Shown here: one piece after another, positions 47,879 to 57,244 of the stretch
How the letters are laid out: every line of letters starts with the position of its first letter
Numbering within the stretch: the stretch's first letter is position 1
Program-made: the position numbers and the translations under genes
Notes under the pieces: generated by a model
What the model saw: only the letters and a program-made list of their open reading frames with translations
Told to the model about the DNA's origin: nothing
Database searches by the model: none
Origin: Vreelandella songnenensis
GTDB lineage: Bacteria; Pseudomonadota; Gammaproteobacteria; Pseudomonadales; Halomonadaceae
Direction of reading: 5' to 3'
DNA length: 64,000 bases
Assembly (NCBI RefSeq): GCF_003002925.1
Contig: NZ_PVTK01000002.1
Span: forward strand, 310,001-374,000

Positions 47879-47973
47879 GCTAATTAATTGTTTTTTATTA
47901 AAATATTGTCAATATTAAGTTTTTGCACGTATGTGCAAAACGTAAACGTTCTGTCATTTTTCCTCTCTAGAAT
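47879..47973 (+). promoter_or_regulatory. AT-rich promoter/operator region of the 48029-53570 operon
   Basis: The 308-bp gap upstream of 48029 is strikingly AT-rich. It contains AATATT-GTC-AATATT (47902-47916), a perfect operator-like palindrome TTTTGCAC-GTAT-GTGCAAAA (47921-47940), the palindrome AACGTAAACGTT (47939-47950) and a -10-like TAGAAT (47968-47973). The 20-bp palindrome is a good candidate site for the LacI-type regulator encoded at 53545. A single CTGTCAT at 47951-47957 resembles half of a Pho box, but the other half is poor. Confidence 0.5.
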
Positions 47974-48028: not shown

Positions 48029-49834
48029 ATGATTGGGTGGATCTTTACAGCACTCCCCACGAAACGGGGGCTACAGCTCAGTCTTAAAGACCCGGCGACG
48101 CTATTGGGCATTGGCCTGCTTATCACGTTCAGCTATCTCATCCTGGCGCCGGTCATCTCCATTCTCATGGACGCCGTCAACGTCAATTTTGGAGATTCAA
48201 ACCGGATTGGCACGCCCCAGGGCAACTTCACGCTCTATTATCTTGAGCGCGTGTTCACCTCCCCCATTTCACAACGCCTCTTCTGGCAGCCGCTGTTCAA
48301 TACGCTTAGCGTGGCGCTCGGTGCCATGTGCATCGCCATGGTGATCGGCGGGGTCATGGCCTGGCTTCTAAGCCGTACCAACCTCTGGGGCCGGGGCTGG
48401 TTCGCCACGGCGCTGATCGTGCCGTTCATGCTCCCCACGTGGACCTTTGCGCTTGCCTGGACCACGCTGTTCAAGAACCGCTCGATGGGCGGGCAGCCGG
48501 GGTGGCTTGAATCAATGGGCTACTCTTCGCCCGACTGGCTGGCCTATGGGCCGGTGCCCATGGTCCTTATTCTGGCGCTTCACTACATTCCGCTGGTCAT
48601 ACTGCTGTTCGGCAACGCCCTGCGTCGACTGGACTCCCAGCTTGAAGACTCGGCGCGCATTCTGGGCGCCAGCCGCTCCACCGTTGCCTTTCGCATCATC
48701 CTGCCGCTGATGCGCCCGGCGCTGATGTCGGCCATGGTGCTGATCCTGGCCGATGCCCTGGGCGAGTTTGCCGTTCCCTACATCCTTGGCTTACCCGTTC
48801 AGTACGATACGCTCTCCACCTCGCTGTTCAGGGCGATCTCATCGCGCCAGACCGGCGTTGCCTCGGTACTGGCCGGCGCCATCATGGTGCTGGGCTGTAT
48901 CACATTGACCATCGACCTGTACCTGATGCGCGAAGCGCGCCGCTTCGTCACGCTGGGTGGCAAGGGCGCCATGGAGCGTCGGCGCCCACTTGGCGTTTGG
49001 CGTCTGCCCGCCACGCTGCTGGCCGCTAGCCTGTTTGTAGTGGGCGTGGTGCTTCCGCTCATGACGCTCTTTCTATCCACCGTCATGCGTATCCCGGGGC
49101 GCTTTAACCTCTCCAACTTCACGCTCGATTACTGGATCGGCACCAATCTCGACACGATCGCGCTCTCGAACGGCATTCTATTGACGCCGGAGTTCTGGTC
49201 GGCCACCTGGAACAGCCTGCGCATCGTGGGCACCGCGTCCATCTGTGCTGGGTTGCTCGGGCTACTGGTGGGCTACGTCGTCACGCGCACGCCCTGGCGG
49301 TGGCTGGCAAGCACGCTGCGCCAACTCACCTTCATGCCTTATCTCGTGCCGGGTATTGCCTTCGCTGCAGCCACTCTGTCGCTGTTTGCCGTACAGCGCG
49401 GCCCGGTGCCCGCCCTTTATGGCACCTCGTTGATCCTGATGCTGGCGCTGATTGCCGATCAGATGCCCTTTGCCTCACGGGCAGGCATATCGGCCATGAC
49501 GCAGCTGGGTAAAGAGCCCGAAGAAGCTGCCCAGATATCGGGCGCCTCATGGCTCAAGCGTATGGTCAGCATCATCGTGCCCATTCAGAAAGGCGCGCTG
49601 GTGGTGGGTATCGTGCTGCCCTTTATCTCCGGCATCAAAGGCGTGAGCCTTTTCATCATCCTGGCGGTACCGGCCACCGAAGTGCTGACCACCTACTCAC
49701 TGCGCCTGGTGGATTACAACTACACCCAGGCGGCCAACGCCGTTGTGCTGATGATTGCCCTGCTCGCCTGGGGCGGCACGGTGCTGACCCAGAAATTAAC
49801 CAAGACGGGCCTCGCCCAAGGCCTGGAGAGCTAG
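48029..49834 (+). CDS. ABC transporter permease, fused double (FbpB/AfuB-like)
   Basis: A 601-residue inner-membrane protein with two tandem BPD_transp_1 domains and about 12 helices. Both EAA loops are visible: LEDSARILGASRSTVAFRII and PEEAAQISGASWLKRMVSII. This fused architecture is that of the ferric-iron/phosphonate/hexose-phosphate importer group (FbpB, AfuB). It forms the whole pore alone. RBS AATGAGGA precedes ATG 48029. First gene of a run that continues through two phosphatase genes and a regulator, which argues for a phosphorylated substrate rather than iron. Confidence 0.83.
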   Translation: MIGWIFTALPTKRGLQLSLKDPATLLGIGLLITFSYLILAPVISILMDAVNVNFGDSNRIGTPQGNFTLYYLERVFTSPISQRLFWQPLFNTLSVALGAMCIAMVIGGVMAWLLSRTNLWGRGWFATALIVPFMLPTWTFALAWTTLFKNRSMGGQPGWLESMGYSSPDWLAYGPVPMVLILALHYIPLVILLFGNALRRLDSQLEDSARILGASRSTVAFRIILPLMRPALMSAMVLILADALGEFAVPYILGLPVQYDTLSTSLFRAISSRQTGVASVLAGAIMVLGCITLTIDLYLMREARRFVTLGGKGAMERRRPLGVWRLPATLLAASLFVVGVVLPLMTLFLSTVMRIPGRFNLSNFTLDYWIGTNLDTIALSNGILLTPEFWSATWNSLRIVGTASICAGLLGLLVGYVVTRTPWRWLASTLRQLTFMPYLVPGIAFAAATLSLFAVQRGPVPALYGTSLILMLALIADQMPFASRAGISAMTQLGKEPEEAAQISGASWLKRMVSIIVPIQKGALVVGIVLPFISGIKGVSLFIILAVPATEVLTTYSLRLVDYNYTQAANAVVLMIALLAWGGTVLTQKLTKTGLAQGLES

Positions 49835-49836
49835 TC

Positions 49837-50928
49837 ATGCCTACCATCACGTTAGACGCCATTTCCAAGCAGTACAGCCAACAGGCAACCGCGGTTCAGA
49901 ATGTCGACCTGCATATTCCAAGCGGTGACTTCATGTGCCTGCTGGGCCCGTCAGGCTGCGGCAAGACCACGATGCTACGCATGATTGCAGGCCTCGAGCA
50001 CCTGAGCCACGGGCGGCTTTACATCGGCGACCAGCTGGTTGATTCACCGCAGAGCGGCTGTTTCGTGGCGCCGGAAAAGCGCGGCCTGGGCCTGGTATTT
50101 CAGAGCTACGCGCTATGGCCGCACATGACGGTCGAGCAGAACATCGAGTTTGGTCTGCGGCTGCGCAAGCTTTCCGAGCGCGAACGCCGCGCCCGCACCG
50201 GGGAGGTGATGGAGAAACTGGGCATAGCCGGTTACGCCAAGCGCTACCCTTCACAGCTTTCCGGCGGACAGCAGCAGCGCGTAGCCCTCGCCCGCATGAT
50301 GGTATTGAAACCGAAGGTACTGCTGCTCGATGAGCCACTCTCCAACCTTGATGCCTCCTTGCGCCTGGAGATGCGTGCTGAACTCAAACGGCTACACCAA
50401 GCGTTTGATACCACCATTCTGTTTGTCACCCACGACCAGTGGGAAGCCATGACCCTGGCCACCAACATTGCCGTCATGAGCAAGGGCCAGTTGCAGCAGG
50501 TAGGCAGCCCGGACGATATCTACGCGCGTCCGGCCAACCGCTTCGTGGCCGAGTTTATCGGCAACCCGCCGATCAATCAGGTAGCAGCGGATACCGCGCT
50601 GGGAGGCCGACTCGCCCGCCAGCCGAATACGCACATGCTGGGAATTCGCCCGGAAGATATCCACCTGGCGCCTGACGCCACTGCCCATACGCTGCCTGCC
50701 AAGGTGCGGGGCATCATGCCGACCGGCGGAAGCTGGGTGCTGGATATGGAAATAGAGGGCCAGTGTCTGCAGCTCTCGACCCAGATCAGGCCCCAGGTAC
50801 AGGCGGGTGAACATACCTACTGCCAGATTCAGCCCCAGCATGTGCACCTGTTCGACGCAGCCGGCAGCCGCCTTGAGCATACGGCTTATCACAACGCCGT
50901 CCCCACTTCCTTCATGCATGCCGTTTAA
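49837..50928 (+). CDS. ABC transporter ATP-binding protein (FbpC/AfuC-like)
   Basis: A 363-residue ATPase with all motifs intact: Walker A GPSGCGKTT, Q-loop VFQSYALWPHMT, signature [14 protein letters not shown], Walker B LLLDEPLSNLD and switch His in FVTHDQWEAMT. A C-terminal TOBE_2 regulatory domain follows. It pairs with the fused permease, beginning 2 bp after its stop with GGAG upstream. Confidence 0.87.
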   Translation: MPTITLDAISKQYSQQATAVQNVDLHIPSGDFMCLLGPSGCGKTTMLRMIAGLEHLSHGRLYIGDQLVDSPQSGCFVAPEKRGLGLVFQSYALWPHMTVEQNIEFGLRLRKLSERERRARTGEVMEKLGIAGYAKRYPSQLSGGQQQRVALARMMVLKPKVLLLDEPLSNLDASLRLEMRAELKRLHQAFDTTILFVTHDQWEAMTLATNIAVMSKGQLQQVGSPDDIYARPANRFVAEFIGNPPINQVAADTALGGRLARQPNTHMLGIRPEDIHLAPDATAHTLPAKVRGIMPTGGSWVLDMEIEGQCLQLSTQIRPQVQAGEHTYCQIQPQHVHLFDAAGSRLEHTAYHNAVPTSFMHAV

Positions 50929-50940
50929 AAGGGTTTATCC

Positions 50941-52044
50941 ATGCGTTCTCTATCACGACTTGCCATTGCCATCAGCCTAGCCTCAGCACCCGCGGCGTGG
51001 GCTGGCGAATCCAGCGCGATCGATGAGCTGATCGAAGCTGCCCGCCAGGAGCCCGCGATCACGGTCTACGACTCCACCGGCAAGATCATCGAGCAGGCCG
51101 AAGGCTTTACACGCAAGTACGGCGTTCAGGCAGAAGGGGTGAAATCGAAGGCGCCGCACACGCTGGAACGCATCATTCGCGAGGCCCAGGCGGGCAACAT
51201 CCAAACCGATGTGGCAATACTGGCCGATGCGCCGGCGGCGGTCGCCCAACTGCTGGATACCGGCTTTGCGGTCAACTGGTTTCCCGAAGCGCTGGCCGAC
51301 ACTATCAGCGAGCGCTATCGCGACCCGCTGGCCATCGTCATGGCGCCCAACGTATGGACCTACAGCACCGCGCTTCACGACAGCTGCCCTATCGCCAACC
51401 TTTGGGAGTTGACCGAGCCCGAGTGGGCGCGTCGCGTTGCCATGCAGGATCCGCTGGGCAAGCCCTCCTACGTGGACTGGTTCAACCAGATGGCCCAGCA
51501 CGGCGATGAGGCAATGGCGGCCGCCTTTGAAGCACGCTATGGCCACCCGCTCGACGATTCCGAGGAGAGTGCCACTGCGGCCTGGGTAAAGGCCTTGGCC
51601 GCCAACGCGCCACTGCTGACCGACTCGGATTCCAACGCCGCAGAAGCCGTGGCCTCCCCGGATCAGCAGGACAGTTTTATCGGCTTAACCAGCACCGCCA
51701 AGTTTCGTGACAATGCCAACGGCATGACGCTTGGCATCTGCGAAGGCCTCGACCCCTGGCTTGGCTGGACCTACCCCTCCATTGGCCTTATTGCCAGTGG
51801 CACCCAAAGCCCCAATGCTGCCAAGCTCTTCTTGTATTACCTGTTGACCGAAGAAGGCATCGCCCCCCAGGCGCAGGACGGGAAAATTTCGACCCGCTCC
51901 AACATTGCGCTACCGGCCAGCGAGCCTTCCGGCATTGGGGCGCTTAAAGCGCAGCTGTTTGATTACTCCCCGGATACGGCCATCGATGACTGGGAAAACC
52001 GCCAGGATTGGCAGGAACTCTGGATGCTGAACTATCGCCGTTGA
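50941..52044 (+). CDS. ABC transporter substrate-binding protein (FbpA/AfuA-like)
   Basis: A 367-residue periplasmic receptor with signal peptide (MRSLSRLAIAISLASAPAAW, cleavage near AWAGE). It opens AITVYDSTGKIIEQAEGF and has QTDVAILADAPAAVAQLLDTG, the cluster-D type seen in FbpA and the hexose-phosphate receptor AfuA. The twin-Tyr iron-binding motif of FbpA is not evident, which argues against iron. Ligand is inferred from the neighbouring phosphatases to be a phosphorylated polyol or sugar. Its stop codon lies in the first unit of a 13-bp tandem repeat. Confidence 0.78.
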   Translation: MRSLSRLAIAISLASAPAAWAGESSAIDELIEAARQEPAITVYDSTGKIIEQAEGFTRKYGVQAEGVKSKAPHTLERIIREAQAGNIQTDVAILADAPAAVAQLLDTGFAVNWFPEALADTISERYRDPLAIVMAPNVWTYSTALHDSCPIANLWELTEPEWARRVAMQDPLGKPSYVDWFNQMAQHGDEAMAAAFEARYGHPLDDSEESATAAWVKALAANAPLLTDSDSNAAEAVASPDQQDSFIGLTSTAKFRDNANGMTLGICEGLDPWLGWTYPSIGLIASGTQSPNAAKLFLYYLLTEEGIAPQAQDGKISTRSNIALPASEPSGIGALKAQLFDYSPDTAIDDWENRQDWQELWMLNYRR

Positions 52045-52085
52045 CCCATCGCCATTAACTATCACCATTAACCATCGCCGTTAAC
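52033..52085 (+). repeat. Four-copy 13-bp tandem repeat over the binding-protein stop codon
   Basis: Units TATCGCCGTTGAC, CATCGCCATTAAC, TATCACCATTAAC and CATCGCCGTTAAC follow each other, with one extra C after the first. The consensus is YATCRCCRTTRAC. Unit 1 contains the last codons and the TGA of the receptor gene; later units offer TAA instead. Confidence 0.85.
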
Positions 52086-52125
52086 AACAATACCTGCGTT
52101 CACGCTGCACTCTATAAGGATAGCT

Positions 52126-52950
52126 ATGCCGATTCTGCCCCATGAGCTTGAGGCCCGCGCGGAGTTCTTGAAGGACATGATTCACCGCACTGGCCTGAAA
52201 GCACGCCATCTTTTCGAAACGCGTACGCCGGGGCTCTACACGCTCAAGGGCCACCAGGATTTCCTGACCGAGGCCGATACCTTCATCGAGCAAGAGATCA
52301 AGGCCGCCATTGCACAGCACTTTCCCAGCGATGCCTTCATGGGCGAGGAAAGTAGCGGCGAGCAGTGCGGCGGGCAGGTCAACGGCAACGCCACCTGGAT
52401 CGTCGACCCGATCGATGGCACGGCCAACTACGCCAGAGGCATTCCTCACTTCTGTGTCTGCATCGCGTTTATCGACCGCGGCAAGACCCAGCTGGGCGCC
52501 ATTTTCAACCCGTGCACTGAGGAGCTCTATTTCACCCAGCGCGGCAAGGGCGCCTATAAAAACGCCGAGGCCATTCAGGTAGCCGCCACCCGCGACTTCA
52601 CCACCGCGACCATTGAAATGGGCTGGTCCACTCGAACCGCGCTGCAGACCTACCTCAATGCCCAGGCGGCACTTTTATCCCATGGTGCCAACGTTCGCCG
52701 CGGCGCCTCCGGCGCGCTGGCCCTGGCCTGGGTGGCCGAAGGCCGCATCGACGGTTATCTCGAGCATCATATGCATCCCTGGGACAGCCTGGCCGGGCTT
52801 TTACTGGTGCGTGAAGCGGGTGGCGTGACACGCCCCTACCTTTCCCTTTCCGGCACTCTGAGCACGGGCGGCGCGGTGCTAGCGGCGGCGCCGCACATCG
52901 CGGATTCCCTTACCCATTACAGCCAACTTGAAGAGCTTGACATCGCATGA
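52126..52950 (+). CDS. Inositol monophosphatase-family phosphatase
   Basis: A 274-residue enzyme of the lithium-sensitive Mg2+-dependent phosphatase family. The metal-binding residues are in place: GEES (73-76), WIVDPIDGTANY (91-102, Asp94 and Asp97) and the C-terminal PWDSLAGLLLVREAGG with Asp220. No signal peptide, so it acts in the cytoplasm. The genome should have another copy (SuhB) elsewhere; this one is embedded in the importer operon, suggesting it dephosphorylates the imported compound, for example an inositol monophosphate. RBS AAGGAT; the next gene starts inside its stop codon. Confidence 0.85.
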   Translation: MPILPHELEARAEFLKDMIHRTGLKARHLFETRTPGLYTLKGHQDFLTEADTFIEQEIKAAIAQHFPSDAFMGEESSGEQCGGQVNGNATWIVDPIDGTANYARGIPHFCVCIAFIDRGKTQLGAIFNPCTEELYFTQRGKGAYKNAEAIQVAATRDFTTATIEMGWSTRTALQTYLNAQAALLSHGANVRRGASGALALAWVAEGRIDGYLEHHMHPWDSLAGLLLVREAGGVTRPYLSLSGTLSTGGAVLAAAPHIADSLTHYSQLEELDIA

Positions 52951-53570
52951 CCAAACATCACTATCCGCGCCCGCCCATGAGTCTGATCGAGCCCAACCTG
53001 CCCGGGCGTAACGTGGCGCTCTATATCGGCGATAGCCAGGCCGCCAGCAGCCCGGCACTGCTTGAAGAAAATGGTATTACCACGGTGATCAACTGCGCCG
53101 TCAATCTGGATATCAACCTGGTGGACACGAGTATTCCTCCTACGCCCAACGGCTTGATTCAAGGGCCTGGCAGGTTTCGGTATTACAAGATCGGCATGAT
53201 CGACGGCCCGGGTAACCCGCACGAACAGATGCTGGCCGCCTATTTCATTCTCAGAGCCGCGCTTGACCAGGTCATGCCGGACAAGCCCTCCTACCCATTG
53301 CGCGAAAAAGGCAATGTGATGGTGCATTGTCGCGGCGGGCGCAGCCGCTCGGTCACGCTGGTATCGTTGTTTCTGCATCTGGAACTGCCCAACCGCTACC
53401 CAACGCTTGAAAGCGCCGTGGCCCATGTGCGCCAGGAGCGCCAGCTGCATCCGGATGAGTGGTTTGAAACTCCCAAACCGGAGCTGTTCGATGCCGCCCG
53501 CATCGCGGCCCGGCAGATAAAGCAATTACTCCAAGAGGCACCCGATGAGCAGCTCACGCAAGTTTGCTAG
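52947..53570 (+). CDS. Dual-specificity-type (Cys-x5-Arg) phosphatase
   Basis: A 207-residue protein with the cysteine-phosphatase signature VHCRGGRSRS: nucleophile Cys128 and Arg134. An Asp in KIGMIDGPGNPHEQM is a candidate general acid. Cytoplasmic, no signal. Family members act on phosphoproteins, but some dephosphorylate inositol phosphates; in this operon the latter is attractive. Start overlaps the previous stop (ATGA), and the C-terminus overlaps the regulator gene by 26 bp, so the three genes are translated together. Confidence 0.78.
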   Translation: MTKHHYPRPPMSLIEPNLPGRNVALYIGDSQAASSPALLEENGITTVINCAVNLDINLVDTSIPPTPNGLIQGPGRFRYYKIGMIDGPGNPHEQMLAAYFILRAALDQVMPDKPSYPLREKGNVMVHCRGGRSRSVTLVSLFLHLELPNRYPTLESAVAHVRQERQLHPDEWFETPKPELFDAARIAARQIKQLLQEAPDEQLTQVC

Positions 53571-54546
53571 TGCTGAAGAGGTCGCACGCCTGGCCGGCGT
53601 GTCGCGTTCGGCGGTATCACGCACCTTTACCGACGGTGCCAGCGTCTCGGAAGAGACGCGTCGCAAGGTGCTTGCAGCGGCAGCCGAGCTCAACTACCAC
53701 GTCAATCACCTGGCCCGCGGCCTCTCCCAGGAGAGCTCGCGCCCGGTCTGCCTGGTAGGCGATCACCTCTCATCGCCGTTTCTCTCGAGCTTGCTGGAAG
53801 CGGTCAGCCGGCACATCCAGGCGCTGGGCCGGGCCGTCATGTTGATCAACACGTCCGGCGAGCCCGAAGCCGTGGAAGGCGCCCTGCATCAGGCATTGAA
53901 GTACCGGGCGAGCGCCATCGTGGTGTTATCCGGCGCGCCTGCAGAATCTCTGGTGCAAACCTGTATTCAAAGCGGGCTGCGGGTGGTGCTGGTCAACCGC
54001 GGTCACGAATTCAGCGGCCCGGTGCATATCACACTCGACCACGAATCCGCCATGCAGGAAGCCTTCGAGCTGTTTTACCGGGTGGGATGCCGCTCTTTTG
54101 GACTGGTAACCTCCACCGCCTGCACGCCAAGCCTGCTAGCCCGGGAACAGGCTTTTACCCGAGCGGTGAATGAAGCGGGGCTTTCGATAACCACCGTGCG
54201 GGAAGGTCCCACCCAGTACGCCACGGGCCAGGCCGCCGCTAGAGCGCTGCTTGCCCGTTCACAGCGGCCGGATGCCGTGCTCTGCACCACCGACCTGCTG
54301 GCGTGTGGTTTTCTGGACACCGCGCGCCAGTCGTTCAAGCTCGATATTCCGCAAGACCTGTGCGTCATGGGCTTCGATAACATCGAGCAGGCCAGCTGGC
54401 AAAGCTATGAACTGACCACCTTTCATCACCCGGTGGAGGAAATCGCGGCATGCATTGTCAAGCAGCTGGCAGATGAGGATGTCATCAGCCAGATGATTCA
54501 GCTGCCTGCCCAGCCCGTGTGGCGGAGCACCATTCGCCCGGGCTGA
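53545..54546 (+). CDS. LacI-family transcriptional regulator
   Basis: A 333-residue regulator with an N-terminal LacI helix-turn-helix (SAEEVARLAGVSRSAVSRTF) and hinge (YHVNHLARGLSQ), followed by a periplasmic-binding-protein-like sensor (FLSSLLEAVSRHIQALGRAV, RPDAVLCTTDLLACGFLD, MGFDNIEQASW). It ends the importer operon and probably represses it through the palindrome at 47921-47940. AGAGG lies six bases before the ATG. Confidence 0.88.
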   Translation: MSSSRKFASAEEVARLAGVSRSAVSRTFTDGASVSEETRRKVLAAAAELNYHVNHLARGLSQESSRPVCLVGDHLSSPFLSSLLEAVSRHIQALGRAVMLINTSGEPEAVEGALHQALKYRASAIVVLSGAPAESLVQTCIQSGLRVVLVNRGHEFSGPVHITLDHESAMQEAFELFYRVGCRSFGLVTSTACTPSLLAREQAFTRAVNEAGLSITTVREGPTQYATGQAAARALLARSQRPDAVLCTTDLLACGFLDTARQSFKLDIPQDLCVMGFDNIEQASWQSYELTTFHHPVEEIAACIVKQLADEDVISQMIQLPAQPVWRSTIRPG

Positions 54547-54591
54547 AACCTCACCCGCTAACGCGCCTGATACAGCAACACTCTGATTTTA

Positions 54592-54611
54592 TTCGCCCTA
54601 CTTCGGGCGAA
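54592..54611 (+). terminator. Stem-loop after the LacI gene
   Basis: TTCGCCC-TACTTC-GGGCGAA, seven paired bases, in the 135-bp gap before the phosphatase gene. No clear T run, so this is a weak or attenuating terminator. Confidence 0.4.
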
Positions 54612-54681
54612 GGGGCCTCTTTGTGCCTTTTAAACGTGCCTTTTGACGCGAACTGACCAACTTTCCACCAGGAGAACACCA

Positions 54682-56094
54682 ATGCAAGCCACGACGAACC
54701 GCTACCTTGGCGCTGTCGCTTTCGCCGCCGCCGGCTGGCTGGCCGCCACGCCAGCCCTGGCCACGGACGCCAGCGCGCCGGACGCTACGCACTACAGCAC
54801 AAAAACGCCCTATCGCTACGTTCCTACCGAGTTCACGCCCGCCCCGCCGGGATATCGCCCGGTGCTGGTCCAGTACGTGGGCCGACACGGTTCGCGCCAT
54901 CTTTCCAGCGCCAAGTACGACAAGACGCTTTTCGAGCTGCTGAGCATTGCCGAGGCGCGCGGTCAGCTCACCGACGCCGGGTACACATTGAAGCAGGAAG
55001 TAGCCCAGCTGATCGCGGTTCAGGAAGACGTCTACGGCGAGCTTTCGATGCTCGGTGGCGAGGAGCTTCACGCTATCGGCGAGCGCCTGGCCGAGCGCTT
55101 CCCCGAGGCCTTCGAGGACGGCCAGCCGATCATCGCCCACGCCACCTACAAGGACCGCACACCTCAAAGCCGCGACCACTTTTTAAGTGGCTTGCAAAGT
55201 GCGCTGGGCGAGGCGACGCCGCCCATCGACGCCCGCCAGTACGCCAAGGGCCGCGACCCTTATCTGCGCCCTTACGACCTGGCCGCCCGCTATGGCGACT
55301 ACAAGAGCGACGGCGAGTGGCAGGCGGTCATCAACGCCTTCCTTGACGCGCAAAGTGAAACCGCCACCTTCGCCCGAGATATCGTCACCCAGTTCATTGA
55401 TGACGAACTCTACGCCGAGCTCGAGCGCGGCGAGCTGGCACTTGAGGACGCCAAGGGGCGCGTCGCTCTCGCCACGCCCACGGACGCCGCCAACAACCTT
55501 TACCAGCTCTATATCATTTCGCCCAACATCGTGCGCGAGGGGGAGTTCGATTTCGGCCGCTACTTCAGCGAAGAGCAGCTGGCCTGGTATGAAGACCTCG
55601 ACTTGATGGAGACCTTCTACGCCAAGGGCCCTTCGCTTACGAGCAGCGACCTGCCCCGGGAAATCGCAGCCCCCATGGTCAAGGAACTGATCACCTCGAC
55701 CGACGAAGCACTTAAGAAGGATAGCGTAAGCGGCATCTTCAACTTCACTCATGCGGAGTTGATCATGCCTCTTGCCGCGTACCTGCAGATCGAAGGTGCC
55801 GATGAGAGCCAGGACGACCCGGCCCAGGTCAGCGCCAGCTGGGCCGGCAAGGACATCACGGCAATGGCCGCCAACATTCAGTGGATTCTTTTCGAGAACG
55901 ACAACGGCGGCGACCCCCTGGTCAAGATGCTGCATAACGAGCGCGAGATAGCCTTCCCTCTCCCGACCGAGCAATACCCCTACTACGACTGGGAAAGCGT
56001 CAAGGCGTACTACATCGCCAAGGTCAATGACAGCGGCATTGCGTTGAGCAACACGCTGGATGAAGACATCGAGGCGCTCGAAAACGACTTCTAG
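54682..56094 (+). CDS. Secreted histidine acid phosphatase, MINPP/phytase-like
   Basis: A 470-residue secreted protein with a signal peptide (RYLGAVAFAAAGWLAATP, cleavage near ALATD). The catalytic motif YVGRHGSRHL (His69 nucleophile, Arg68 and Arg72) identifies the branch-2 histidine phosphatases. The distal proton-donor motif is HAE (357-359, in FTHAELIMPL), the variant found in multiple inositol polyphosphate phosphatases rather than the HD of ordinary phytases. It should remove phosphates from inositol phosphates or other esters in the periplasm. AGGAG at 54670-54674 supports ATG 54682. Substrate is inferred from motif and context. Confidence 0.8.
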   Translation: MQATTNRYLGAVAFAAAGWLAATPALATDASAPDATHYSTKTPYRYVPTEFTPAPPGYRPVLVQYVGRHGSRHLSSAKYDKTLFELLSIAEARGQLTDAGYTLKQEVAQLIAVQEDVYGELSMLGGEELHAIGERLAERFPEAFEDGQPIIAHATYKDRTPQSRDHFLSGLQSALGEATPPIDARQYAKGRDPYLRPYDLAARYGDYKSDGEWQAVINAFLDAQSETATFARDIVTQFIDDELYAELERGELALEDAKGRVALATPTDAANNLYQLYIISPNIVREGEFDFGRYFSEEQLAWYEDLDLMETFYAKGPSLTSSDLPREIAAPMVKELITSTDEALKKDSVSGIFNFTHAELIMPLAAYLQIEGADESQDDPAQVSASWAGKDITAMAANIQWILFENDNGGDPLVKMLHNEREIAFPLPTEQYPYYDWESVKAYYIAKVNDSGIALSNTLDEDIEALENDF

Positions 56095-56139
56095 GTCGTA
56101 AACGCCCTTCACTTTTTTAACACATTGAAAACACACCCT

Positions 56140-56161
56140 CTTTTAATCCTGCGATTAAAGG
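56140..56161 (+). terminator. Stem-loop between phosphatase and porin genes
   Basis: CTTTTAATC-CTGC-GATTAAAGG, about nine pairs including one G-T, 79 to 100 bases... located in the short gap before the porin gene. It may attenuate read-through or protect mRNA ends; no T run. Confidence 0.35.
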
Positions 56162-56203
56162 AGCGGCCAGTGACTGCCTGAACTTTTTGTAAGGATCGAA
56201 GAA

Positions 56204-57244
56204 ATGAAGAAATTGATGCTTGTTACCGCGCTTTCCATGGCCGCTTTTCAAACGGCGCAAGCCGCCGCCGTGTTTGAAAACGAGGAAGTGCGGATCGACC
56301 TGACCGGCAAGCTTCAGTACGAAGCGGGCGCGTTTAAATATGATAAACAGAACCCGGCTCAACGCCTCAACTTCGGCGGTGACGGCAAGGCACGCTTGGG
56401 AACCCAGTTTCGCTACCACTTCACCGATGAAATCGACCTGCTGGGTAAGCTTGAGTGGCAGCTCAATGCCGAAGACGAAAATGATGCCAAGACCGATAGC
56501 CTCGACGTGCGCTACGCCTGGCTCGGGTTTCGTTACCTGGACCAGCTGGAAATGGCCATTGGCCGCACCAAGAGCTCGACCAGTCAACTGGTGGATGTCA
56601 CCGATATCTTCGAGCTGTTTGGCTCCTCCGCCAACGACAACAAGATCAATGGCATCAAGCCCTTCGATAGCAAGAAGGATGACCAGCTGACCATCGGCTA
56701 CGATATCGGCAACTGGGACCTGCGCGGAAGCTACGTCTTCGAAGATGAGCGCCGCCCGCGCGAAACCAGCGCCGGCGACCGCGACTACCAGTACAGCTTC
56801 TCGGCACGCTATACCACCGAGTCGGAGATCGATTTCGTGGGGGCCTACGAACGCCAGAGCTTTCAAGGCAGCACCGACACGCTGGGCGACATGACCAGCT
56901 GGGGGCTGGGGGTGGGATGGCGCTTCGATCCGTTCTACGTGGGCGCCATCAACGGCTACAAGCGCATGACGGCCGCCGACGATCAGGAGTTTTCCTCGCA
57001 CTTCTATGAACTGGCCGCCGCCTACGAGCTAGGCAGAGCGCTTTTCATGGTGGGTTACAACAATGAAAAAGGCGAAGACGACCTGGCCGATGAGGGCACT
57101 CGGGTCGATGAAGTCGTCTTCGGAGTATCCTATCAACTGATGCCGCGAGCCAAGGTATACGCCGAGTACAACGTTGATCGCCTGCGCGTGGATGGCCAGC
57201 GCCGGGACGACCTATACGGCATGGGGATCGAGGTCAAGTTCTAG
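56204..57244 (+). CDS. Gram-negative trimeric porin
   Basis: A 346-residue outer-membrane beta-barrel. Signal peptide MKKLMLVTALSMAAFQTAQA, then VFENEEVRIDLTGKLQYEAG, the typical first strand of OmpC/PhoE-like porins; LDVRYAWLGFRYLDQLEMAIGR is the conserved region before the constriction loop and the last residue is Phe, as required for barrel assembly. It likely admits the small solutes used by the neighbouring phosphatase and importer. Pore selectivity cannot be read by eye. Confidence 0.85.
   Translation: MKKLMLVTALSMAAFQTAQAAAVFENEEVRIDLTGKLQYEAGAFKYDKQNPAQRLNFGGDGKARLGTQFRYHFTDEIDLLGKLEWQLNAEDENDAKTDSLDVRYAWLGFRYLDQLEMAIGRTKSSTSQLVDVTDIFELFGSSANDNKINGIKPFDSKKDDQLTIGYDIGNWDLRGSYVFEDERRPRETSAGDRDYQYSFSARYTTESEIDFVGAYERQSFQGSTDTLGDMTSWGLGVGWRFDPFYVGAINGYKRMTAADDQEFSSHFYELAAAYELGRALFMVGYNNEKGEDDLADEGTRVDEVVFGVSYQLMPRAKVYAEYNVDRLRVDGQRRDDLYGMGIEVKF

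Follow-up and report, generated by a model that had tools for sequence, protein, structure and literature searches.

A predicted organophosphate acquisition locus of Vreelandella songnenensis that couples an ABC importer to a secreted phytase

Which compound is taken up by an ATP-binding cassette (ABC) importer whose genes are followed by those for two phosphatases, a LacI-family repressor, a secreted phytase and a porin? Such a locus lies at 48029-57244 of a 64,000-nucleotide stretch of the Vreelandella songnenensis genome (contig NZ_PVTK01000002.1, positions 310,001 to 374,000), hereafter called the window. The original prediction, made from the sequence without database searches, had described a locus for the uptake and breakdown of inositol phosphates and phytate, and open reading frame and domain calls placed all eight genes where it had put them, on one strand (Table 1). 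Comparison with related loci indicated that this is probably a system for acquiring organophosphates in connection with phytate breakdown, which would import partly dephosphorylated inositol phosphates.

The first six genes, from the permease to the repressor, are tightly packed. The inositol-monophosphatase-family (IMPase) gene overlaps that of the dual-specificity-type cysteine phosphatase (DSP) by 4 nt, the latter overlaps lacI by 26 nt, and the remaining gaps in this core are 2, 12 and 81 nt; 135 nt lie ahead of the phytase gene and 109 nt ahead of the porin gene. Genome contigs were searched with a profile of eight aligned binding-protein sequences, and the best 80 of 154 relatives, drawn from alpha- and gammaproteobacteria, were analysed. 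The permease was found in 79 of these loci, the ATPase in 79, the IMPase-family enzyme in 78, the DSP in 77 and LacI in 79, one locus (L025) being cut off by a contig end. All six genes stood in the order and strand of the window in 34 loci (32 with a single binding protein, two with an extra one), and two further loci kept the order without the IMPase gene, giving 36 loci of the core arrangement in Halomonas/Vreelandella, Marinomonas, Enterobacterales, Rhizobiales and Rhodobacterales. The core proteins of 31 such loci outside Halomonas/Vreelandella were 48-69% identical to those of the window, and the retention of the arrangement at this identity is more than chance. Another 41 of the 80 loci formed a rhizobial-type class (class B) with a divergent LacI gene, a metallophosphoesterase and at least two binding proteins; a Na/Pi-cotransporter-like gene was also present in 30 of them.

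A palindromic LacI-type operator accompanies the core arrangement. In the window its 16-base core starts 106 nt before the start codon of the permease gene, and the exact pattern TTGCACN4GTGCAA occurs once in the genome. The strict operator TGCACNTANGTGCA was detected 5' of the permease gene in 35 of the 36 core-arrangement loci, the 36th having a variant spacer, and in only one of the 44 other loci (the upstream part of L025 was not covered). Its presence tracked a co-oriented LacI gene, and the LacI of the core is presumed to bind the site in the window. All genomes of a first set of 25 core-bearing ones contained the strict operator, 22 of them as a single copy and three as two copies, and a reversed-pattern control gave no match; in a second set of 25 it occurred once in 24 and was absent from the genome of L024, the control occurring once in each of two genomes. 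Five entries were repeats by identical coordinates, so that about 45 genomes were covered.

The phytase and porin genes accompany this core in several lineages. In Halomonas/Vreelandella the MINPP-type phytase gene came next after lacI in all six scanned loci, and the porin gene came next after it in all five loci that extend that far; genome G102 (L007) was alike. In Vibrio sp. HDW18 the genes for a MINPP and a Porin_4 porin are divergent from the importer, with one operator between them. In two Marinomonas genomes (G206 and G209) the importer and a MINPP-porin gene pair are on different contigs, and an extra operator stands 120 nt upstream of where the MINPP gene starts, the porin gene coming after it. 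These MINPPs had been detected by a His_Phos_2 search in which the operator played no part. Marinomonas G207 lacked both a second operator and a His_Phos_2 gene. A stretch of porin, phytase and core was present to at least 80% in four Klebsiella pneumoniae plasmid records, and in the two read gene by gene (L095 and L231) a KdgM-type porin gene and then a histidine phosphatase gene stand directly 5' of the core, the operator lying 3' of the phytase gene and 5' of the permease gene. The PhyK-like phytase of L095 was closest to the Klebsiella 3-phytase (2wnh, E 3.7e-82). The unit of porin, phytase, importer, phosphatases and LacI that had been proposed for the window is therefore well supported by comparison, which covered Halomonas/Vreelandella, Vibrio, Marinomonas (in trans, with a shared operator) and Klebsiella plasmids, and in which three kinds of phytase and two kinds of porin took part.

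The MINPPs of Halomonas and the operator-linked ones of Vibrio and Marinomonas were 27-31% identical and fell into separate, well-supported groups of a tree of 13 sequences, which was midpoint-rooted and carried long-branch warnings. Counting the PhyK type, this suggests that a phytase was recruited three times; alternatively, one ancestral phytase may have been replaced. On the conjugative Klebsiella plasmid of L231 (2261-14317), the porin-phytase-importer set is flanked by transposase genes of the IS5 and IS3 families and may therefore be mobile as a cassette. Around chromosomal PhyK-like genes, for which 14 of 21 matches were fetched, a KdgM porin gene was adjacent in eight of the 14. In these loci (L206, L207, L208 and L211-L215), on enterobacterial chromosomes or contigs, it stands directly 5' of the phytase gene and the importer core is not present, indicating that porin and phytase form a module of their own. 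A plasmid of Cetobacterium somerae (L229, 5935-11309) carries a MINPP-like gene directly before a PhnD-PhnC-PhnE-PhnE importer and a metallo-beta-lactamase (MBL) hydrolase, a phytase paired with a different importer family.

A second candidate control element adjoins the operator. Directly after it, offset as a rule by 1 to 3 bases, stands a direct repeat resembling TGTCA-N6-TGTCA, which we take to be the core of the Pho box. When each upstream region was compared with 300 shuffles, the repeat reached p<0.05 in 31 of the 40 regions carrying the strict operator, these 31 p-values not being independent tests because the loci are related; the test failed for L083 and for eight enterobacterial loci, which have just one half, TGTAAC or TGTCAC. 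The repeat of the window matched at 8 of 10 positions (p=0.030), its first half being degenerate, and both halves were intact in the relatives L011, L012, L013 and L015. PhoB would be expected to bind at this repeat. The original prediction also relied on co-regulation of the phytase and porin genes (54682-57244) with the importer; as the window has its operator solely before the permease gene, this co-regulation is there inferred from relatives. The operator, the Pho-box-like repeat, the second binding-protein gene described below and the result for iolE had not formed part of that prediction.

Several observations weigh against an importer of inositol phosphates tied to phytate breakdown, in addition to the interdependence and the failures of the Pho-box-like test. 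Of 82 genomes of the genus, the 8 with a MINPP gene were also the 8 with a DSP gene, but this co-occurrence adds little support since the two genes are neighbours and thus not independent. The third extra operator copy (genome G196) had no phytase gene nearby, Marinomonas G208 had a MINPP-like gene without an exact operator, and both the operator of the window and that of Klebsiella precede the permease gene only, not the phytase or porin gene. Neither the importer core nor the strict operator was found in any of the 14 fetched stretches around chromosomal PhyK-like genes of Enterobacteriaceae. A His_Phos_2 gene was absent from 10 of the 22 core-bearing genomes searched, so that the importer core is often without a histidine phytase, and a search for beta-propeller phytases (PF02333) gave no match in 22 core-bearing genomes of an overlapping set, cysteine phytases not being searched. 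In lineages lacking a phytase, the importer must use compounds trimmed by others, or other phosphate esters, and it may accept further phosphorylated sugars as well. The model of the binding protein (predicted local distance difference test, pLDDT, 92.5) matched metal-citrate, ferric and glucose-6-phosphate binders alike among the 50 fold matches listed, and the fold search thus failed to separate binders of iron, citrate and sugar phosphates.

These points bear on the possibility that the core, similar to AfuABC, imports phosphorylated sugars or polyols in general, and that some lineages gained the phytase and porin just to generate phosphate or additional substrate nearby. The lack of a histidine phytase in 10 of 22 genomes agrees with it, as do the two or more binding proteins in all 41 class B loci and the best profile match of the binding protein among solved proteins, a protein titled glucose-6-phosphate binder (8x1a, E 9.1e-08), followed by AfuA (4r72, E 7.7e-07), the latter over chain positions 8-156 only, the first part of AfuA. 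We nevertheless consider this general importer rather unlikely, as the core is associated with three kinds of phytase, two extra operator copies stand at phytase genes, and an IMPase-family gene is present in 78 of 80 loci.

The names of the importer proteins point in other directions. The permease was annotated as an iron ABC transporter permease in all six annotated records opened, which together with several ferric binders among the fold matches would agree with FbpABC-type import of iron(III), encoded next to unrelated phosphatase genes. FbpA binds iron via two adjacent tyrosines. The lone such pair in the binding protein of the window is at 299-300, and its first tyrosine was not conserved among eight aligned sequences, in agreement with the original prediction of a receptor lacking an evident iron motif. 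The phosphatases are encoded within the operon and in one open frame in Enterobacterales, and the control elements are a LacI operator and a Pho-box-like repeat; iron import is thus highly improbable. Among NCBIfam models the permease matched PhnU2 (TIGR03262) best, and a phosphonate cluster adjoins the locus in Vibrio sp. HDW18, both of which would fit a 2-aminoethylphosphonate importer of the PhnSTU2 kind. This match, however, reached 128.7 bits where the cut-off is 593.25, and the ATPase likewise stayed below its cut-off (TIGR03265, 324.7 bits against 457.7). Moreover, there is no phosphonate-cleaving gene among the eight, and Vibrio sp. HDW18 possesses a separate importer so named alongside, leaving aminoethylphosphonate a very improbable substrate. 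Of the top 25 of 27 permease matches and the top 25 of 187 ATPase matches, none passed a curated NCBIfam cut-off, and the binding protein, DSP, phytase and porin had no NCBIfam match at E 0.001 or better.

The genome of the window contains a second, stand-alone binding-protein gene on another contig (G000:C1:681250-682550), the product of which is 56% identical to that of the window. An operator with one mismatch lies 194 nt 5' of it, and genome G102 is alike, at 201 nt. As operators with at most one mismatch numbered five in this genome against four in the reversed control, this site rests on its place and on the parallel in G102, not on numbers.

The two phosphatases following the importer are both presumed to be cytoplasmic; a signal peptide was not apparent by eye in the IMPase-family enzyme. 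This enzyme scored 193.7 bits with PF00459 against a cut-off of 27 and contains GEE (73), DPIDGT (94) and WDSLAG (219), which we take to be the metal-binding motifs of the family. Its nearest solved relatives were SuhB and other bacterial inositol monophosphatases. As it remained below the curated cut-off of the equivalog NF008027 (151.1 bits against 332), its substrate is not readable from the family. The DSP has the active-site motif C128-x5-R134, both residues of which were invariant in 33 sequences, and its model (pLDDT 89.1) adopts the VHR/DUSP fold. The two enzymes were encoded in a single open frame of 477-532 residues in all 15 enterobacterial loci examined, some of which are close kin or from the same genome, and separately in the window and in two further loci checked. 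In L091 (15075-28890) and similar rhizobial class B loci, the IMPase-DSP pair can be duplicated.

The secreted enzyme was confirmed as the MINPP-like histidine phosphatase that had been predicted, with MINPPs as its best solved matches (9qyv, E 2.3e-39; 4fdt, E 1.2e-38). MINPPs are described as secreted enzymes with an RHGxR heptapeptide, a HAE proton donor, PMAAN and LYNE in the available sections of the source (PMC9432691). The phytase of the window shares the first features, with RHGSRHL at 68 and HAE at 357, but AMAAN (394) and LHNE (417) replace PMAAN and LYNE, a variation also seen in its relatives, and unlike the MINPPs of those sections it is coupled to an importer and LacI.

Table 1. 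Features of the locus in window coordinates
Feature	Position	Strand	Basis
Fused ABC permease, FbpB/PhnU2-like, two membrane domains	48029-49834	+	PF00528 (BPD_transp_1) twice
ABC ATPase with TOBE domain	49837-50928	+	PF00005, PF08402
Periplasmic binding protein	50941-52044	+	PF13531 (SBP_bac_11); FbpA/AfuA-type fold
IMPase-family phosphatase (Inositol_P)	52126-52950	+	PF00459, 5.6e-57
Dual-specificity-type cysteine phosphatase (DSPc)	52947-53570	+	PF00782; VHR/DUSP fold
LacI-family repressor	53545-54546	+	PF00356, PF13377
Secreted MINPP-type histidine phytase (His_Phos_2)	54682-56094	+	Solved MINPP matches; motifs
General porin (Porin_4)	56204-57244	+	PF13609, 2.8e-24
LacI-type operator TTTTGCACGTATGTGCAAAA	47921-47940	strand-neutral	Palindrome
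Pho-box-like direct repeat CGTAAACGTTCTGTCA, first half degenerate	47941-47956	+	Shuffle test
Hairpin between lacI and phytase gene, conserved	54592-54611	+	Comparison with Halomonas relatives
Hairpin 5' of porin gene	56138-56163	+	Pairing in relatives with altered letters, by eye

From these genes we infer the following route. The porin would admit the anionic compound into the periplasm, where the MINPP phytase would strip some of its phosphates. The binding protein and the ABC importer would then take up a lower inositol phosphate, from which the IMPase-family enzyme and the DSP would jointly remove the remaining phosphates in the cytoplasm. The compound must retain phosphate on entry because the cytoplasmic phosphatases would otherwise be idle, and the association with phytases suggests that it is a lower inositol phosphate. 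The dedicated LacI repressor would respond to the compound itself or to one of its products, and phosphate starvation probably acts as a further signal through PhoB at the box adjoining the operator; the combination of the two points to a phosphorus source used when present. Of the inositol catabolic genes elsewhere, which the original prediction had suggested as a check, iolE alone was searched for, and no match was found in the genome of the window. It was over the cut-off in 2 of the 8 operon-bearing genomes of the genus, compared to 34 of 82 overall, making phosphorus a likelier gain than carbon. The idea that the operon supplies inositol for conventional catabolism was considered and set aside, as the iolE search gave no positive link.

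The system is patchy rather than universal. The DSP was found in 8 of 82 genomes of the genus, the binding protein in 2 of 121 genomes of a family draw, the DSP in one of 369 genomes of a class draw of Gammaproteobacteria, the sole carrier being the genome of the window, and the fused IMPase-DSP in 9 of 198 genomes of an Enterobacteriaceae draw. In E. coli genomes the Klebsiella stretch had no match, and the Leclercia stretch matched 471 records, none of them covering 80%, and in the best five the match lay in fbpC and spanned 2% of the query. A promoter scan gave no match on the + strand, and the fold stability of the stretch between lacI and the phytase gene was not unusual (z -1.67). In the hairpin 5' of the porin gene the letters change in Halomonas relatives while the pairing stays, as judged by eye without a covariation score.

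Among described systems, the nearest importer is AfuABC for hexose and heptose phosphates (PMC4546632). It is likewise FbpABC-like, and its binding protein takes a phosphorylated ring compound, with H205, D206 and E229 contacting the sugar; the permease halves are fused in the present locus, and the available sections of that account name no phytase, porin, IMPase, DSP or LacI as part of the system. The pyridoxal-phosphate importer P5PAB of Actinobacillus (PMC8427247) also has an FbpA-like receptor binding a phosphorylated ring and not iron, but its ligand differs, and a phosphatase is nowhere mentioned in the part of the report available. K. pneumoniae was grown with phytate as the sole carbon and phosphorus source (PMC11219571), and an enzyme like the PhyK 3-phytase treated there precedes the same importer core on Klebsiella plasmids, whereas the available text makes no mention of an ABC transporter, operon or porin. 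The accessible parts of accounts of phytate use in the gut concern inositol transporters, not importers of inositol phosphates (PMC12482443; PMC7618129).

A literature search, with most subscription journals outside its coverage, returned no paper that we recognised as describing this system. Phytate is a major store of organic phosphorus in soils, and bacterial phytases are usually discussed as releasing phosphate outside the cytoplasm. The chances are about even that the present locus encodes a dedicated inositol (poly)phosphate importer, by which the cyclitol would enter still phosphorylated and be finished by the IMPase-DSP pair, with PhoB and a LacI whose site is close to unique per genome acting as an AND gate that requires both substrate and starvation, and with unrelated phytases and porins plugged in at least three times. 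If so, the name iron permease carried by all six annotated records opened would need correcting, and the operator provides a ready search key for further members.

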